A stretch of 27,345 bases of DNA, taken from positions 1-27,345 of IMG/VR virus record IMGVR_UViG_3300046542_000230; one strand, written 5' to 3'. Both the position numbers and the translations under genes were made by a program. Below the pieces are notes generated by a model that had not been told where the DNA came from, made no database searches, and saw nothing but the letters and a program-made list of their open reading frames with translations. The stretch comes from a virus. Positions within the stretch are counted from its first letter, which is position 1. Each line of letters starts with the position of its first letter. This document shows, in pieces, positions 11,517-16,719 of this stretch.

Positions 11517-11662
11517 TTGCTTTTTTGAAAACCGTAACTGAAATCATTATACTGATATATAATTACTTTGATATTGTAATAATAAAACTATAAATATCAT
11601 CCATTAGGTGTTGCCAACACACTAAAATCAAAAAACTCAACTGCAAGAAAAAGGATTGTTGT

Positions 11663-12155: not shown

Positions 12156-12569
12156 ATGAACCCTATCAAAGTATTCCCTTTTAGACGCAAAATGAAAGAA
12201 CCTACAATTGTCGATATTAGACTATCTGATTTACTAGGTATTGACATTACTAATTCGTCTAGCCTTACCATTAATATTATTGATGATCTACCAACTAATA
12301 TCAACTTCTCTGAGAACGTTGGTTTATCAACTATAAAAAATTTTTTTCTTTCTTCACTTAATAAATTATTCATTAATCCAAAATCTCTAACTGATGGCTC
12401 TAAAGTGGATTTTAATAATTTTGATGCTCATGTCAAGAGCGTAGAGAAACACTTAGAATTAGAGGCATTAAAATCTGCAGCGCCATGTTCTTGTGCTAAG
12501 AAGAAACGAAGCAAAAAGGCTACTCGTATCACATTCCTTAAGGAGAAGAAAGATGCCTGCTGCAGTTAG
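12156..12569 (+). CDS. unrecognised 137-residue protein with Cys-rich basic tail
   Basis: Unrecognised. Residues 1 to about 105 look like a small mixed fold (VDIRLSDLLGIDITNSSSLT). The last 30 residues carry CSC, a run of Lys and Arg (KKKRSKK) and a terminal CC pair. Two closely spaced cysteine pairs could bind a metal or form disulfides, though spacing matches no family I can name. The 3' end overlaps the PAAR gene start by 17 bases, so the two are translationally coupled; with PAAR next door, a spike or baseplate accessory role is a reasonable guess, not a finding. Confidence 0.7.
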   Translation: MNPIKVFPFRRKMKEPTIVDIRLSDLLGIDITNSSSLTINIIDDLPTNINFSENVGLSTIKNFFLSSLNKLFINPKSLTDGSKVDFNNFDAHVKSVEKHLELEALKSAAPCSCAKKKRSKKATRITFLKEKKDACCS

Positions 12570-12843
12570 ACTTGGCGATACTAGCACTGGTGATCCATGT
12601 GGTGCTCCTGCCCGTCCAAATAATATGGGCTGTGCTATATCTATCATTAATAATAAACCTATTCATTGTGCAACTCATACATGGGTTAAACATGCATGTC
12701 CCGGTGATCCACCACATGACGCTAATACAACTGCAGGTTCACCTGATAGTTTTGCCGAATCCCTTCCAATTGCAAGGATAGGCGATCCTATTAGCTGTGG
12801 ATCTACATGTGCAACTGGCTCTCCAGACACATTTGTAAATTAA
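12553..12843 (+). CDS. PAAR-domain spike tip protein, 96 residues
   Basis: Small conical protein that caps the central membrane-piercing spike of contractile tails and type VI secretion systems (T4 gp5.4 is the phage example). The family signature is clear: an opening RLGDTSTGDPCGAPARP, then IHCATHTWVKHACPGDPPH, then IARIGDPISCGSTCATGSP. Histidines and cysteines in the middle and end supply the usual metal site at the tip. Length of about 96 residues is typical for a stand-alone PAAR protein. ATG 12553 is chosen because AAGGAGAAG is correctly placed before it and the family begins at that point; a longer frame from 12493 lies within the previous gene. The terminase gene follows after 9 bases. 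Confidence 0.92.
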   Translation: MPAAVRLGDTSTGDPCGAPARPNNMGCAISIINNKPIHCATHTWVKHACPGDPPHDANTTAGSPDSFAESLPIARIGDPISCGSTCATGSPDTFVN

Positions 12844-12852
12844 AGAGGCTTT

Positions 12853-13500
12853 ATGAGTACTCAAACTGAAATAGCTGCTACAGGAGAAAAGTATACTACG
12901 CATTTGAAAACACAGAATATGTCTTTCCTAAAGATGTATAGGTATTTACGAGATCGTGGTATTAAAAACAATAAGTTCTTTCTCCGCTTATATGATGAAT
13001 CCCTAGCTACTGTAAACCCACACAGTGCTAGACTTACTCCTGTACAGAAGACTAAGATTCTTGCAGAAATTACAAAGAATCCATATTACTATTTGCGTGA
13101 AATCGTTAAGATTCCTATTCCGGGTGGTTTAGCAAGCTTTGAACTACATCCAGGAAATTTAGCAATTACATGGGCTCTTATTAATAACTTAGACCAAATT
13201 GCATTACTACCGCGTCAGCGTTATAAGACAGTATCTATTGCTGCTACGCTTACTTGGGTATATGACTTCGGTACTAAAAACACCCACATGCTGTTTGGTA
13301 ATAAATCACTAGGCGACTCCAAGAACAACTTACGACGGTTCAAAGAGATTCGTGAGAACATCCCACAATTCTTAAGAGAAACCATTAATACTCCTGGCCT
13401 GGACGTAGATAACATGGAATCTGTTAAGAGTGAGAAAACTCGTAACAAGATTGATACTGTTGGTCAGCCTACAAACGAAGATGCTGCCGACAAACAGGGT
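12853..13500 (+). CDS. terminase large subunit, exon 1 (residues 1-216)
   Basis: N-terminal part of the DNA-packaging motor ATPase, which with the portal drives DNA into the prohead. The adenine and Walker A region reads LLPRQRYKT, residues 118-126 (about 13204-13230). The Gln-containing P-loop is typical of terminases (T4 gp17 has SRQLGKT), but the usual Gly before Lys is Tyr here. The exon ends ADKQG at 13500. Without splicing, the frame continues only nine codons to a stop at 13528, so the ATPase would be cut just before Walker B. AAAGAGG precedes ATG 12853. Splice boundary evidence is given under the intron. Confidence 0.9.
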
Positions 13501-13713
13501 TATTGCATGGCTCTGTATAAATACCTTTAAATGCTGGGACGCCCCTTGAATATGGGTAATCAGCAGTATAGACAAAACCGTATCTGTTGCATAAATGTTG
13601 ATATATAATTCTTGTGAACTCATATAGATAATACTGTGTGAACGTACTATTCTGTGGATTTTTACTATGATCCGTCTAGAATACTATAACCCTACCATAC
13701 CAAGGATTGTATA

Positions 13714-15075
13714 ATGACTACTTCTAAAACTGTAAAAGCAACTGAAGCTCAAGTTAAAGTTGCAAAAGAATTTGATGTAAAAGCGCATACTCATGCGTTT
13801 GGGGAAGCTCTGAATAATGCACTTACTAGTGTATTCAAATCAGATGCAAAGGATGTAATCTATGTAGACGGTGAGTTGAAGAAACTCTCTGCTATTGGTT
13901 ACCACGTTGTAAATCAACCTAATATTTACAATGCTGACCGACTGGTTGCAAAAGCAAAGTCGATAGTAGCTGAATTGGTAGAGCATCAAGCTCTGACAGT
14001 TCATGGGGAAGATGCTGTAAATGTGGTTGTTGGTAAGTTCACTGCTTTTGCTTCTAACATTACTAATGCTGTAAACCAAGAGGAACCTGCAATGACTACC
14101 ACTACCACCGCTAAGCCCGTTACTAAATCTACCACTGCTAAAGCTGCAGTTAAACCTGTTCAACCAAAGAAAGTTGAACGTGCTGAAAAGCCTGTTGTAA
14201 AAGCAGCGGCTAAAGCAACTGCTCCGATTGTTGAAGAAAAAGTAGTAACTGATTCTTTGAAAGAACAGCTGGACCTTTTGACTCCTGCACAACGTGCTGA
14301 ATTTGATGCAATGATTGCAGAGGCTACTGCTACTATGCAGACGCCTGAACAGCGTGTACTGTTCGAATCGATGATTAATAATATGCTCATTACTCTGCTA
14401 GGGAACGCTACCATGACCAATACCGCTACCGCTGCTACCGCTCAAACTGTTGCTGCTGAAGAAGTTGTAGATGTTAAATCTACTCCGAACCGGGATGCAA
14501 TCATTGCAGACTTGTTCAAGCAAGCTACCAAGTTCTTCGAACGTCTGGAACTGGCTACCATTGGTAGTTCTACCAAGATCAAGAGTAAAGCTCTTGGTAT
14601 CAACTCGGAGAAGAATGAATACATTCCATCTCCTGAACTGTTGATGGCTGCTGTCGTTGAAAACCCTGTAGAACTCGGTACAGTAATGTACAAGATCTAC
14701 AGCGTTGTACATGACAAAAAGTTGGGCAAGACTGTACGTCGTGTTCTGGAAATCACTGCTGGTGATACCAACTACGAAGTATTCGACAAGAAGGCTGTAA
14801 AGCTCGCAAAGCGCTTATTGGTTGCTGAGACTGCTGAAACTCGTGAAGAGATTGTGAAGAACAGTAACGAGTCTAAAGCTCTTAAAGTAACCATCATGAA
14901 ACCAGTGTATCGTACTGTTGATGATATTCTGGATGCTGGTAAAACCCTGATCAAAGCTGGTTTCAAGGGTATTACCACTCTTCCTAAGAAAACAGTGCGT
15001 CAAGAAATGCGTACCATTAACAACAACTACAAGAATGCCAACGGCGGCTTCTTCAAAGTGTTGACCACCTGGTAA
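13714..15075 (+). CDS. intron-encoded protein of unknown function, 453 residues
   Basis: Lies wholly inside the P6 loop of the intron. Strong ribosome site AAGGA at 13702. Residues 1-125 form an apparent domain (VKAHTHAFGEALNNAL; IYVDGELKKLSAIGYHV). Residues about 126-185 are an Ala/Lys/Thr/Pro linker. Residues about 188-230 contain a helical repeat (LTPAQRAEFDAMI and TPEQRVLFESMI). Residues about 255-453 are a C-terminal domain ending GKTLIKAGFKGITTLPKKTV and KNANGGFFKVL. I find no LAGLIDADG, GIY-YIG, HNH, His-Cys box or PD-(D/E)XK pattern, so a homing endonuclease is not evident. Leucine codons are mainly CTG and TTG with CTA once by eye, unlike neighbouring genes, which suggests separate ancestry. 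Function unknown. Confidence 0.85.
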   Translation: MTTSKTVKATEAQVKVAKEFDVKAHTHAFGEALNNALTSVFKSDAKDVIYVDGELKKLSAIGYHVVNQPNIYNADRLVAKAKSIVAELVEHQALTVHGEDAVNVVVGKFTAFASNITNAVNQEEPAMTTTTTAKPVTKSTTAKAAVKPVQPKKVERAEKPVVKAAAKATAPIVEEKVVTDSLKEQLDLLTPAQRAEFDAMIAEATATMQTPEQRVLFESMINNMLITLLGNATMTNTATAATAQTVAAEEVVDVKSTPNRDAIIADLFKQATKFFERLELATIGSSTKIKSKALGINSEKNEYIPSPELLMAAVVENPVELGTVMYKIYSVVHDKKLGKTVRRVLEITAGDTNYEVFDKKAVKLAKRLLVAETAETREEIVKNSNESKALKVTIMKPVYRTVDDILDAGKTLIKAGFKGITTLPKKTVRQEMRTINNNYKNANGGFFKVLTTW

Positions 15076-15104
15076 GCAATCTGCAATACGGTATAAAACC
15101 TAGA

Positions 15105-15149
15105 GTATTGACCACCTGTAATGGGTGGTCATGCTTTAGTTTTTTTTTG
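15105..15149 (+). other. hairpin and T tract between intron ORF and P6/P7
   Basis: GACCACC at 15110-15116 pairs with GGTGGTC at 15124-15130. Nine bases later a run of T (15140-15148) leads into the 3' strand of P6. Because of the nine-base gap it is not a standard terminator. An identical TTGACCACCTG occurs at the ORF end (15061-15071) and at 15108-15118, so GGTGGTC could pair with either copy. Confidence 0.5.
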
Positions 15150-15318
15150 TCTATATTCAACGACTATCGAAAAGAGTGTGGAAACACATTAACTTAGTAG
15201 AGTACACTCAAGTGAGTGGAAACTTGGTACATAGAAAAATCTATGAAGATATAGTCTGCTCTGCATAGTAATATGCAGCCCCATGGACATGAATTAACGA
15301 CTCATGTTAAACATAACG

Positions 15319-16719
15319 CGTGGTATGTCTATTCCATTTTATTGGCCTGATGAATTTGCATTCATTAAATTCAATGGAACTATTTATAAATCTGCAGCAC
15401 CTGCAATCAGTAAGGTATCTGAAATTGCTGAGAGTCATGGTCGTCCTCATGGGAAGATCTTCTCTACTACTCCAGCTAACGTTGATACCGAGAATGGTGC
15501 ATTTGCTAAGAATCTAATTGATAATGCATGTCCATTCTTAGAAGAAATGTATGATTGGCCTAGAGACAGGATTAAGCAATTCGTAACTGCTAACTCTGCT
15601 AACGACTTCTTATACATTCGATATACATGGCAAATGCTCGGCTTATCTAAAGAATGGTATGATAAACAATGTCGAGAATTGCTATTTGACTGGCTTACTA
15701 TTCGACGTGAAGTAGACTTAAATTGGACTAAGTCTTCTGATAACTCTGTCTTTAAAGAAGATGAACTTGATAAGTTAAACAAGTTTACCATCATGAACAC
15801 TACTCCTTTAATGGTTGAAGTGAAGAAAGAGAATCCAGAGACAAATGAAATTGTCAAGATGCCTTATGCATTTGTACAACTTAAGCCTATTGATAAAAAT
15901 AAAGTCTACTTTATAGGATGCGACGTTGCTGGTGGTTTAGGTAAAGACTCCTCTACTATTATTGTAACTGATCCACATAATAACTTTAGAGAAGTTGCTA
16001 CTTTCAAAAGTAACACTATCAACATTACTAACTTTACACTATTACTAATTGAATTCATTCTTACATATTGCCCTAAATCAATTATGTTCATTGAAAACAA
16101 CAACTATGGTAAAGGTGTAATTGATAACCTATTAGAACATCCTAGACTTTCTAAGCAAATCTACTATGAATATAAGATTGCAGATAAAGACAAAACAAAA
16201 TCTAATCCTAGTACTGTAACTGAGACTATTGTATATGGTATCAATACTAATACTGCGTCTCGTAGTCTAATGATTGACATTGCAATGGAACTAGTTAGAG
16301 AGACACCGGAATTTATTGTATCTGAAGCTGTGTACCAAGATATTAAAGGTTTAATCTTTACTAAGTCTGGTAAAGTAGAACATGATACTACTGCGCACGA
16401 TGACTCCTTATTTGGTCTCTTAATGATTCACTATGCAGTTAGATATGGTAATAACATTGGGCGATTCTTAAGAGACGCATCAGCTGTTAAGAAAAATATT
16501 GCGCGTGTTAATGCTCTAGCTACAAATGGAGTATTCAATAAAGTTATTGATGATCCAGCGCAAAATAAAGGCATTCAAGTGAATCTCAATGACATTGCTA
16601 GACTTCTAGAATCCGGCGAGTCACTTGCAGATGTCATGCGTCATGTACAAGATTTTGCTGCTAATAAAAAAGCTAAACCTATTAATAATAACTTAATGTC
16701 ACAACTTTTTAAAAGGTAA
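15319..16719 (+). CDS. terminase large subunit, exon 2 (residues 217-682)
   Basis: Completes the packaging motor. The exon opens RGMSIPFYWPDEFAFI, with the Walker B aspartate and catalytic glutamate as residues 227-228, then SAAPA and the coupling motif FSTTPAN. The C-terminal RNase H-fold nuclease has its acidic residues at D418 (IGCDVAGG), E475 (FIENNNYG) and D577-578 (AHDDSLFG), all present. The spliced protein of 682 residues is a normal size for large phages. A stop at 15295-15297 in this frame and no ribosome site before ATG 15304 argue against separate translation, so splicing is needed. The RG at the junction lines up with the RG of T4 gp17 before its Walker B. Confidence 0.92.
   Translation, partial: RGMSIPFYWPDEFAFIKFNGTIYKSAAPAISKVSEIAESHGRPHGKIFSTTPANVDTENGAFAKNLIDNACPFLEEMYDWPRDRIKQFVTANSANDFLYIRYTWQMLGLSKEWYDKQCRELLFDWLTIRREVDLNWTKSSDNSVFKEDELDKLNKFTIMNTTPLMVEVKKENPETNEIVKMPYAFVQLKPIDKNKVYFIGCDVAGGLGKDSSTIIVTDPHNNFREVATFKSNTINITNFTLLLIEFILTYCPKSIMFIENNNYGKGVIDNLLEHPRLSKQIYYEYKIADKDKTKSNPSTVTETIVYGINTNTASRSLMIDIAMELVRETPEFIVSEAVYQDIKGLIFTKSGKVEHDTTAHDDSLFGLLMIHYAVRYGNNIGRFLRDASAVKKNIARVNALATNGVFNKVIDDPAQNKGIQVNLNDIARLLESGESLADVMRHVQDFAANKKAKPINNNLMSQLFKR

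Follow-up and report, generated by a model that had tools for sequence, protein, structure and literature searches.

The window analyzed here, a 27,345-nt stretch of viral DNA (positions 1 to 27,345 of IMG/VR record IMGVR_UViG_3300046542_000230), comes from a jumbo phage whose nearest relative by terminase is Yersinia phage phiR1-37, at approximately 48–55% identity. The gene for its terminase large subunit is interrupted (Table 1). Joining the two exons gives a 682-aa terminase with the junction ADKQG/RGMSIPFYWPDEFAF (ADKQG/RG), in agreement with the terminases of three phages whose gene is intronless, Goe21 and BpSp of Bacillus and SA1 of Staphylococcus. Removal of the intervening element by predicted splicing restores the uninterrupted host protein. 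The insertion site is conserved and lies ten codons before the Walker-B-like DE of the terminase. An ATG at 15304, upstream of the 3′ exon, is inside the intron.

Table 1. Features of the interrupted terminase gene and of the unit nested in it (positions in the window).
Feature	Position	Strand	Basis and remarks
Terminase large subunit, 5′ exon (ends ...EDAADKQG)	12853–13500	+	PHROG terminase, 270 bits
Terminase large subunit, 3′ exon (RGMSIPFYWPDEFAF...)	15319–16719	+	Spliced product aligns through junction
Predicted group I intron with L6 ORF; IA-like (P7.1/P7.2 present), 1818 nt	13501–15318	+	Rfam RF00028, core fold, relatives
P1, CAGGGU (13495–13500, U.G at splice site)/GCUCUG (13510–13515)	13495–13515	+	
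P3 5′ strand UACC, partner GGUA at 15226–15229	13522–13525	+	Compensatory changes
P6 5′ strand UAUAGAC, then A-tract; closes L6	13567–13573	+	Perfect complement of 15149–15155
P6 3′ strand GUCUAUA	15149–15155	+	Stem extended: terminator U-tract pairs with A-tract after 13573
P7 (15162–15167/15251–15256), P7.1/P7.2, P3′	within 15162–15278	+	Rfam, inspection, fold
P8 (15230–15235/15240–15245), P9 (15261–15267/15272–15278)	within 15162–15278	+	Rfam, inspection, fold
Early-type promoter motif GATATATAAT (RATATATWAT)	13600–13609	+	Genome-wide enrichment in relatives; 114 nt before ORF
Shine-Dalgarno of ORF, AAGGA	13702–13706	+	Sequence
Intron-nested ORF, 453 aa	13714–15075	+	453 codons; no known family match
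Candidate internal in-frame start M127 (ATG at 14092)	14092–15075	+	Shine-Dalgarno (AAGAGG) precedes; 327-aa C-terminal product; sequence only
Intrinsic terminator inside intron: stem 15100–15139, nine U (15140–15148)	15100–15148	+	Fold −23.6 kcal/mol, z −6.1

The interrupting element is a predicted self-splicing group I intron. Rfam model RF00028 matches its 3′ half (15143–15278, 36.6 bits, E = 3.7e-7). The ORF divides the intron core, which keeps this score under the gathering cut-off (50). The element has P1, a P3–P9 core, a U.G at the 5′ splice site, and the guanosine-binding helix P7, with P4 (UGCUG/CAGCA) and P7 (GACUAU/AUAGUC) assigned by inspection, and the core without L6 folds into P1 and P4–P9 with a z score of −3.45. 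In a helix comparison that serves as support rather than as an unbiased covariation test, because its arms were picked by eye, the P1 pairing is the same in phiR1-37, in a second jumbo phage from IMG/VR (L018), and in a relative of the intron residing in another gene (L095), and it is compensated in intron 1 of Bacillus phage AR9 (CUGGGU/GCUCAG); P6 in L095 and P8 in L018 are not cleanly paired with these arms. The complementarity of P3 is kept across five introns (UACC/GGUA, UUCC/GGAA, UUCU/AGAA, CUCC/GGAG, and GCCC/GGGC). In the window, phiR1-37, and L018, P6 has a different sequence each time and its strands remain complementary; the longest stem was equaled in 0 of 1000 shuffles. The P6 strands flank the insert, and therefore the ORF sits in L6.

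The first-pass annotation of this DNA had proposed a 453-residue ORF encoded in an intron. Its coordinates are exact, and the group I intron is detected by Rfam. The promoter motif, the terminator, the candidate internal start, and the related introns had gone unnoticed there. The domain layout given there is also borne out: a linker rich in Ala, Lys, Thr, Val, and Pro (81% of residues) at approximately 127–180 is followed by an internal repeat (residues 189 and 210) and by a basic C-terminal part (255–453, pI 9.7). In g144, the ORF found in the corresponding intron of phiR1-37, the ATG of M266 is likewise placed at the start of a linker. The pI of the whole protein is 9.2, compared to 5.6 for g144 and 5.3 for the intron ORF of L018, so charge is not kept. 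AlphaFold2 models are nearly all-helical and of low confidence (mean pLDDT 39 for the full protein and 35 for the C-terminal part, the latter with a two-row alignment).

No homologue of the full 453-aa protein was found by tblastn against phages, in plasmids, with IMG/VR patterns, in GTDB genomes, in ten related virus records, or among PDB sequences, and nothing credible was matched in Pfam, PHROGs, NCBIfam, or PADLOC. Weak matches to DUF3490, Fy-3, bcl-2, and a T3SS effector (Pfam/NCBIfam, E 0.01–0.06) were rejected as composition-driven. The last ~52 residues are common to a 366-aa ORF of the L018 intron, with a Smith-Waterman score of 51 that was reached by none of 408 unrelated C-termini and none of 1000 shuffles; a profile of this shared C-terminus brought up no further convincing match in 47 related records. 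The protein could not be aligned with g144 and is not recognizably homologous to it. Residues 477–495 of g144 form a strongly hydrophobic C-terminal helix (Kyte-Doolittle 2.35), which is absent from the window protein, and a common membrane-anchor role was dropped since this helix occurs in g144 only. The idea of a conserved basic domain for nucleic-acid binding was given up too, the g144 and L018 proteins being acidic. As to its molecular role, host takeover or genome protection would be a guess.

The ORF appears to be equipped with expression signals of its own. RNAP-encoding jumbo phages use AT-rich early promoters of approximately 10 nt (PMC7598289), and the motif before the window ORF conforms to this type. 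It is homologous to the promoter annotated before g144 in phiR1-37, where it reads GATATATTAT, and an annotated early promoter of AR9 includes GTATATATTAT. The consensus RATATATWAT occurs upstream of an ORF in all three introns with cargo. In phiR1-37, 39 of its 50 copies are intergenic (intergenic DNA makes up only 10.7% of the sequence) and 32 lie no more than 250 nt upstream of a same-strand ORF, compared to 3 and 1 of 10 copies of the reversed motif used as a control. Similarly, a 249-kb contig from another sample (G005) contains 54 copies, 51 intergenic and 45 upstream, and three copies of the reversed motif, none of them in either position. Within the window alone, the two motif matches are not significant (equaled in 11 of 100 shuffles). 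A sigma-70 promoter scan, with fewer sites than in shuffles, was uninformative. The sole other copy in the window (11554–11564) is found past the terminator of the major capsid gene and ahead of a 143-aa ORF. Judged from its sequence, the intron contains a putative promoter of the kind described for the genes within genes of T4. At the other end of the unit, terminators are present at the same place in phiR1-37 (annotated) and L018. The U-tract of the window terminator leads directly into the 3′ strand of P6, and its pairing with the A-tract extends P6 in the window and phiR1-37, while terminator and P6 are separate in L018. The promoter motif, Shine-Dalgarno, ORF, and intrinsic terminator would make the L6 insert a self-contained transcription unit.

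The same intron was found at the same codon boundary in phiR1-37 (90175–92127, 1953 nt; 14063–16015 of locus record L002), with similarity in the intron core at E values of 2e-12 and 1e-8. Its L6 carries g144 (526 aa), for which the phiR1-37 record lists both a promoter and a terminator. In this record g143 and g145 stand as two terminase genes, with no intron shown; the comparison indicates that they are exons of one terminase gene with an unannotated intron. The insertion site, an L6 ORF, a promoter motif, and a terminator are shared by the two phages, but g144 and the window protein are not recognizably related. With a profile, 80 terminase loci were retrieved from IMG/VR, and the near relatives among them, L012 and L013 included, are mostly intronless. 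In L018 (668–5467) the same intron is enlarged to 4800 nt and holds about nine co-directional ORFs. Several of these ORFs stand behind AT-rich promoter motifs, nearly all are without a family, and the cargo is of unusual size for an intron of group I in a phage. Another gene of L018 has a second group I intron at its end (12643–12924, minus strand, Rfam 69.8 bits). Because the contig G005 carries the L018 locus at 99.9% identity (C1, 72842–77638), the two were counted as one allele, and three independent cargo-bearing alleles of the terminase intron are known. The terminase gene of AR9 has four introns, the first of them a group I intron at the same site as in the window (DKLG/RG) with no ORF. 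A pattern scan also identified the clearly ORF-less relative in L095, and matched the 5′ end of the intron in other contexts in L093 and L094.

The arrangement in the window is beyond chance, because phiR1-37 and an independent phage from IMG/VR show every one of its components again: intron, insertion site, L6 ORF, promoter motif, and terminator. Since L6 holds g144 in phiR1-37 and about nine ORFs in L018 and the AR9 intron is ORF-less, this loop appears to behave as a cargo slot. Listeria phage LPJP1 (L007, 2011–4000) also has an intron with an ORF, placed either exactly at this terminase site or a few codons from it, but the RNA is that of a group II intron and the ORF is a recognizable homing-type endonuclease. 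The terminase site is an insertion hotspot for unrelated introns, of group I in AR9, phiR1-37, and the window and of group II in LPJP1.

Codon usage was compared with a measure normalized for amino-acid composition and for each phage's own usage, which was adopted in place of a CAI against MCP, sheath, and tube alone, where the window ORF was mid-range. Scored with the E. coli set of optimal codons, which may not be that of the host, the window ORF ranked fourth of 25, after MCP, sheath, and tube. By the same E. coli set, g144 ranked fifth of 217 in phiR1-37 and the 366-aa ORF third of 223 in L018. The T4 controls I-TevII and MobD took the last ranks among 18 genes, and the endonuclease of LPJP1 fell below average. 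The second-ranked gene of phiR1-37 (241918–243252) overlaps the position given for g326 in the phiR1-37 RNA-seq study. According to that study, g326 is among the highest transcripts, the transcript level of g145, the 3′ terminase exon, is very low, and an antisense RNA, misc_5, maps to mid-g144 (PMC4848604). The high g326 and low g145 levels fit abundant expression of the cargo together with attenuation by the terminator. From the promoter motif and codon usage we infer that the window protein is made early and abundantly.

Two readings of the ORF had been offered in the first-pass annotation, namely a new intron mobility or splicing factor and an unrelated phage gene captured by the intron. 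The latter has gained ground: a promoter motif and a terminator belong to the ORF itself, its codon usage resembles that of major structural genes, relatives carry differing ORFs, and the AR9 intron has none. These same ORF-less and differing introns, the lack of any nuclease signal, and the absence of ORF or charge conservation across intron copies speak against the former. On the sum of these comparisons, the window ORF is quite probably not an intron-mobility gene but an ordinary gene of the phage, housed in the L6 loop of a self-splicing group I intron. It is most likely independently transcribed and strongly expressed, with the intron loop as its site.

Phage homing endonucleases are usually located in L6 of group I introns, at a conserved site close to the active site of the interrupted protein. 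The window ORF occupies such a place, and the recognizable endonuclease ORF of LPJP1 is at or near the same insertion site, as would be expected if the ORF encoded a homing endonuclease of unrecognized fold whose cuts in intronless terminase genes spread the intron. This is improbable, however, in view of several results. The LAGLIDADG, GIY-YIG, HNH, PD-(D/E)XK, and EDxHD patterns are absent from the ORF, as had been noticed on first reading for the first four, and Pfam, PHROGs, NCBIfam, and PADLOC found no homing-endonuclease family in it, although PHROGs recognizes the LPJP1 endonuclease, a positive control, at 3e-36. Moreover, neither the ORF nor its pI is kept between copies of the same intron, and its codon usage is opposite to that of real homing endonucleases; the nearly all-helical models point the same way, with little weight at their low confidence. 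A splicing helper (a maturase or RNA chaperone) that binds the intron through its basic C-terminal domain is slightly less probable again. The C-terminal pI and the sequence shared with the L018 intron ORF would suit this role, but the L018 and phiR1-37 proteins are acidic, the loop of L018 houses about eight further unrelated genes, and by computation the ribozyme core, which is complete, folds in the absence of the ORF. An ORF that is neither present in the AR9 intron nor recognizably related in phiR1-37 is not one that the intron requires or is conserved with. The rapid divergence of the ORF between phages could also mean that a former homing endonuclease gene was replaced or eroded to a non-functional ORF that persists by chance in a degenerate intron. 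This we regard as the least probable of the three, as such a remnant would hardly be expected to have selected codon usage over a long open frame, a promoter motif and Shine-Dalgarno before it and a terminator behind it, and a C-terminus conserved in L018.

If the ORF is an ordinary nested gene, the phage virion RNA polymerase would start near the promoter motif early in infection and stop at the intron terminator, and a non-virion accessory protein would be made abundantly. When the terminase is transcribed from upstream, the polymerase would have to read through this terminator. P6 would then close over the whole cassette, intron and cassette would be spliced out together, and the terminase exons would join. 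The intron could thereby house a short, strong transcription unit in a weakly transcribed gene while leaving the gene unbroken. A more tentative proposal, which we consider possible but rather doubtful, is that L6 is a stable cargo bay for one to about nine strongly expressed genes, in which terminator and P6 are integrated into one element and the locus switches between early cargo and late terminase. Short early transcripts would yield the cargo, and long late transcripts would fold, splice, and give terminase.

Phage group I introns have usually been described as empty or as carrying their own homing endonuclease. The T4 td, nrdB, and nrdD introns (with I-TevI, I-TevII, and I-TevIII) are likewise group IA-type introns in phage genes, and their ORFs are in peripheral loops with their own promoters within the intron (PMC2988022). 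Intron genes with their own promoters are thus already known from T4; what is different here is the cargo and the direction of the promoters. Codon usage is poor in the T4 ORFs, which encode homing endonucleases, whereas the window ORF combines strong codon usage with no detected nuclease. The cargo of the present intron is not an endonuclease, comprises up to about nine ORFs, and is exchanged between phages. In T4, middle or late promoters are inside early or middle genes; in the window, an early-type promoter motif is inside a terminase gene. An intron in the RNAP gene of phiPA3 is also in an essential gene of a jumbo phage, and its homing endonuclease, an active nicking enzyme, is used by phages in competing with each other (PMC12908238). 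Compared to these, a single lineage of introns, fixed in its position within an essential gene, seems to carry normal, highly expressed phage genes, with a 4.8-kb block in one relative. If this is true, a self-splicing intron can serve as neutral real estate where early genes are housed in a late gene, the terminase of phiR1-37 has been misread as two genes with the intron between them unrecognized, and an abundant uncharacterized protein of the g144 class is open to direct testing in an isolated phage.

Immediately 5′ of the terminase gene, the window encodes a PAAR-like spike-tip ORF (12493–12843), the phiR1-37 counterpart of which is g142. In the transcriptome study of that phage, g142 is reported as an early gene (PMC4848604), which is odd for a tail-tip protein.
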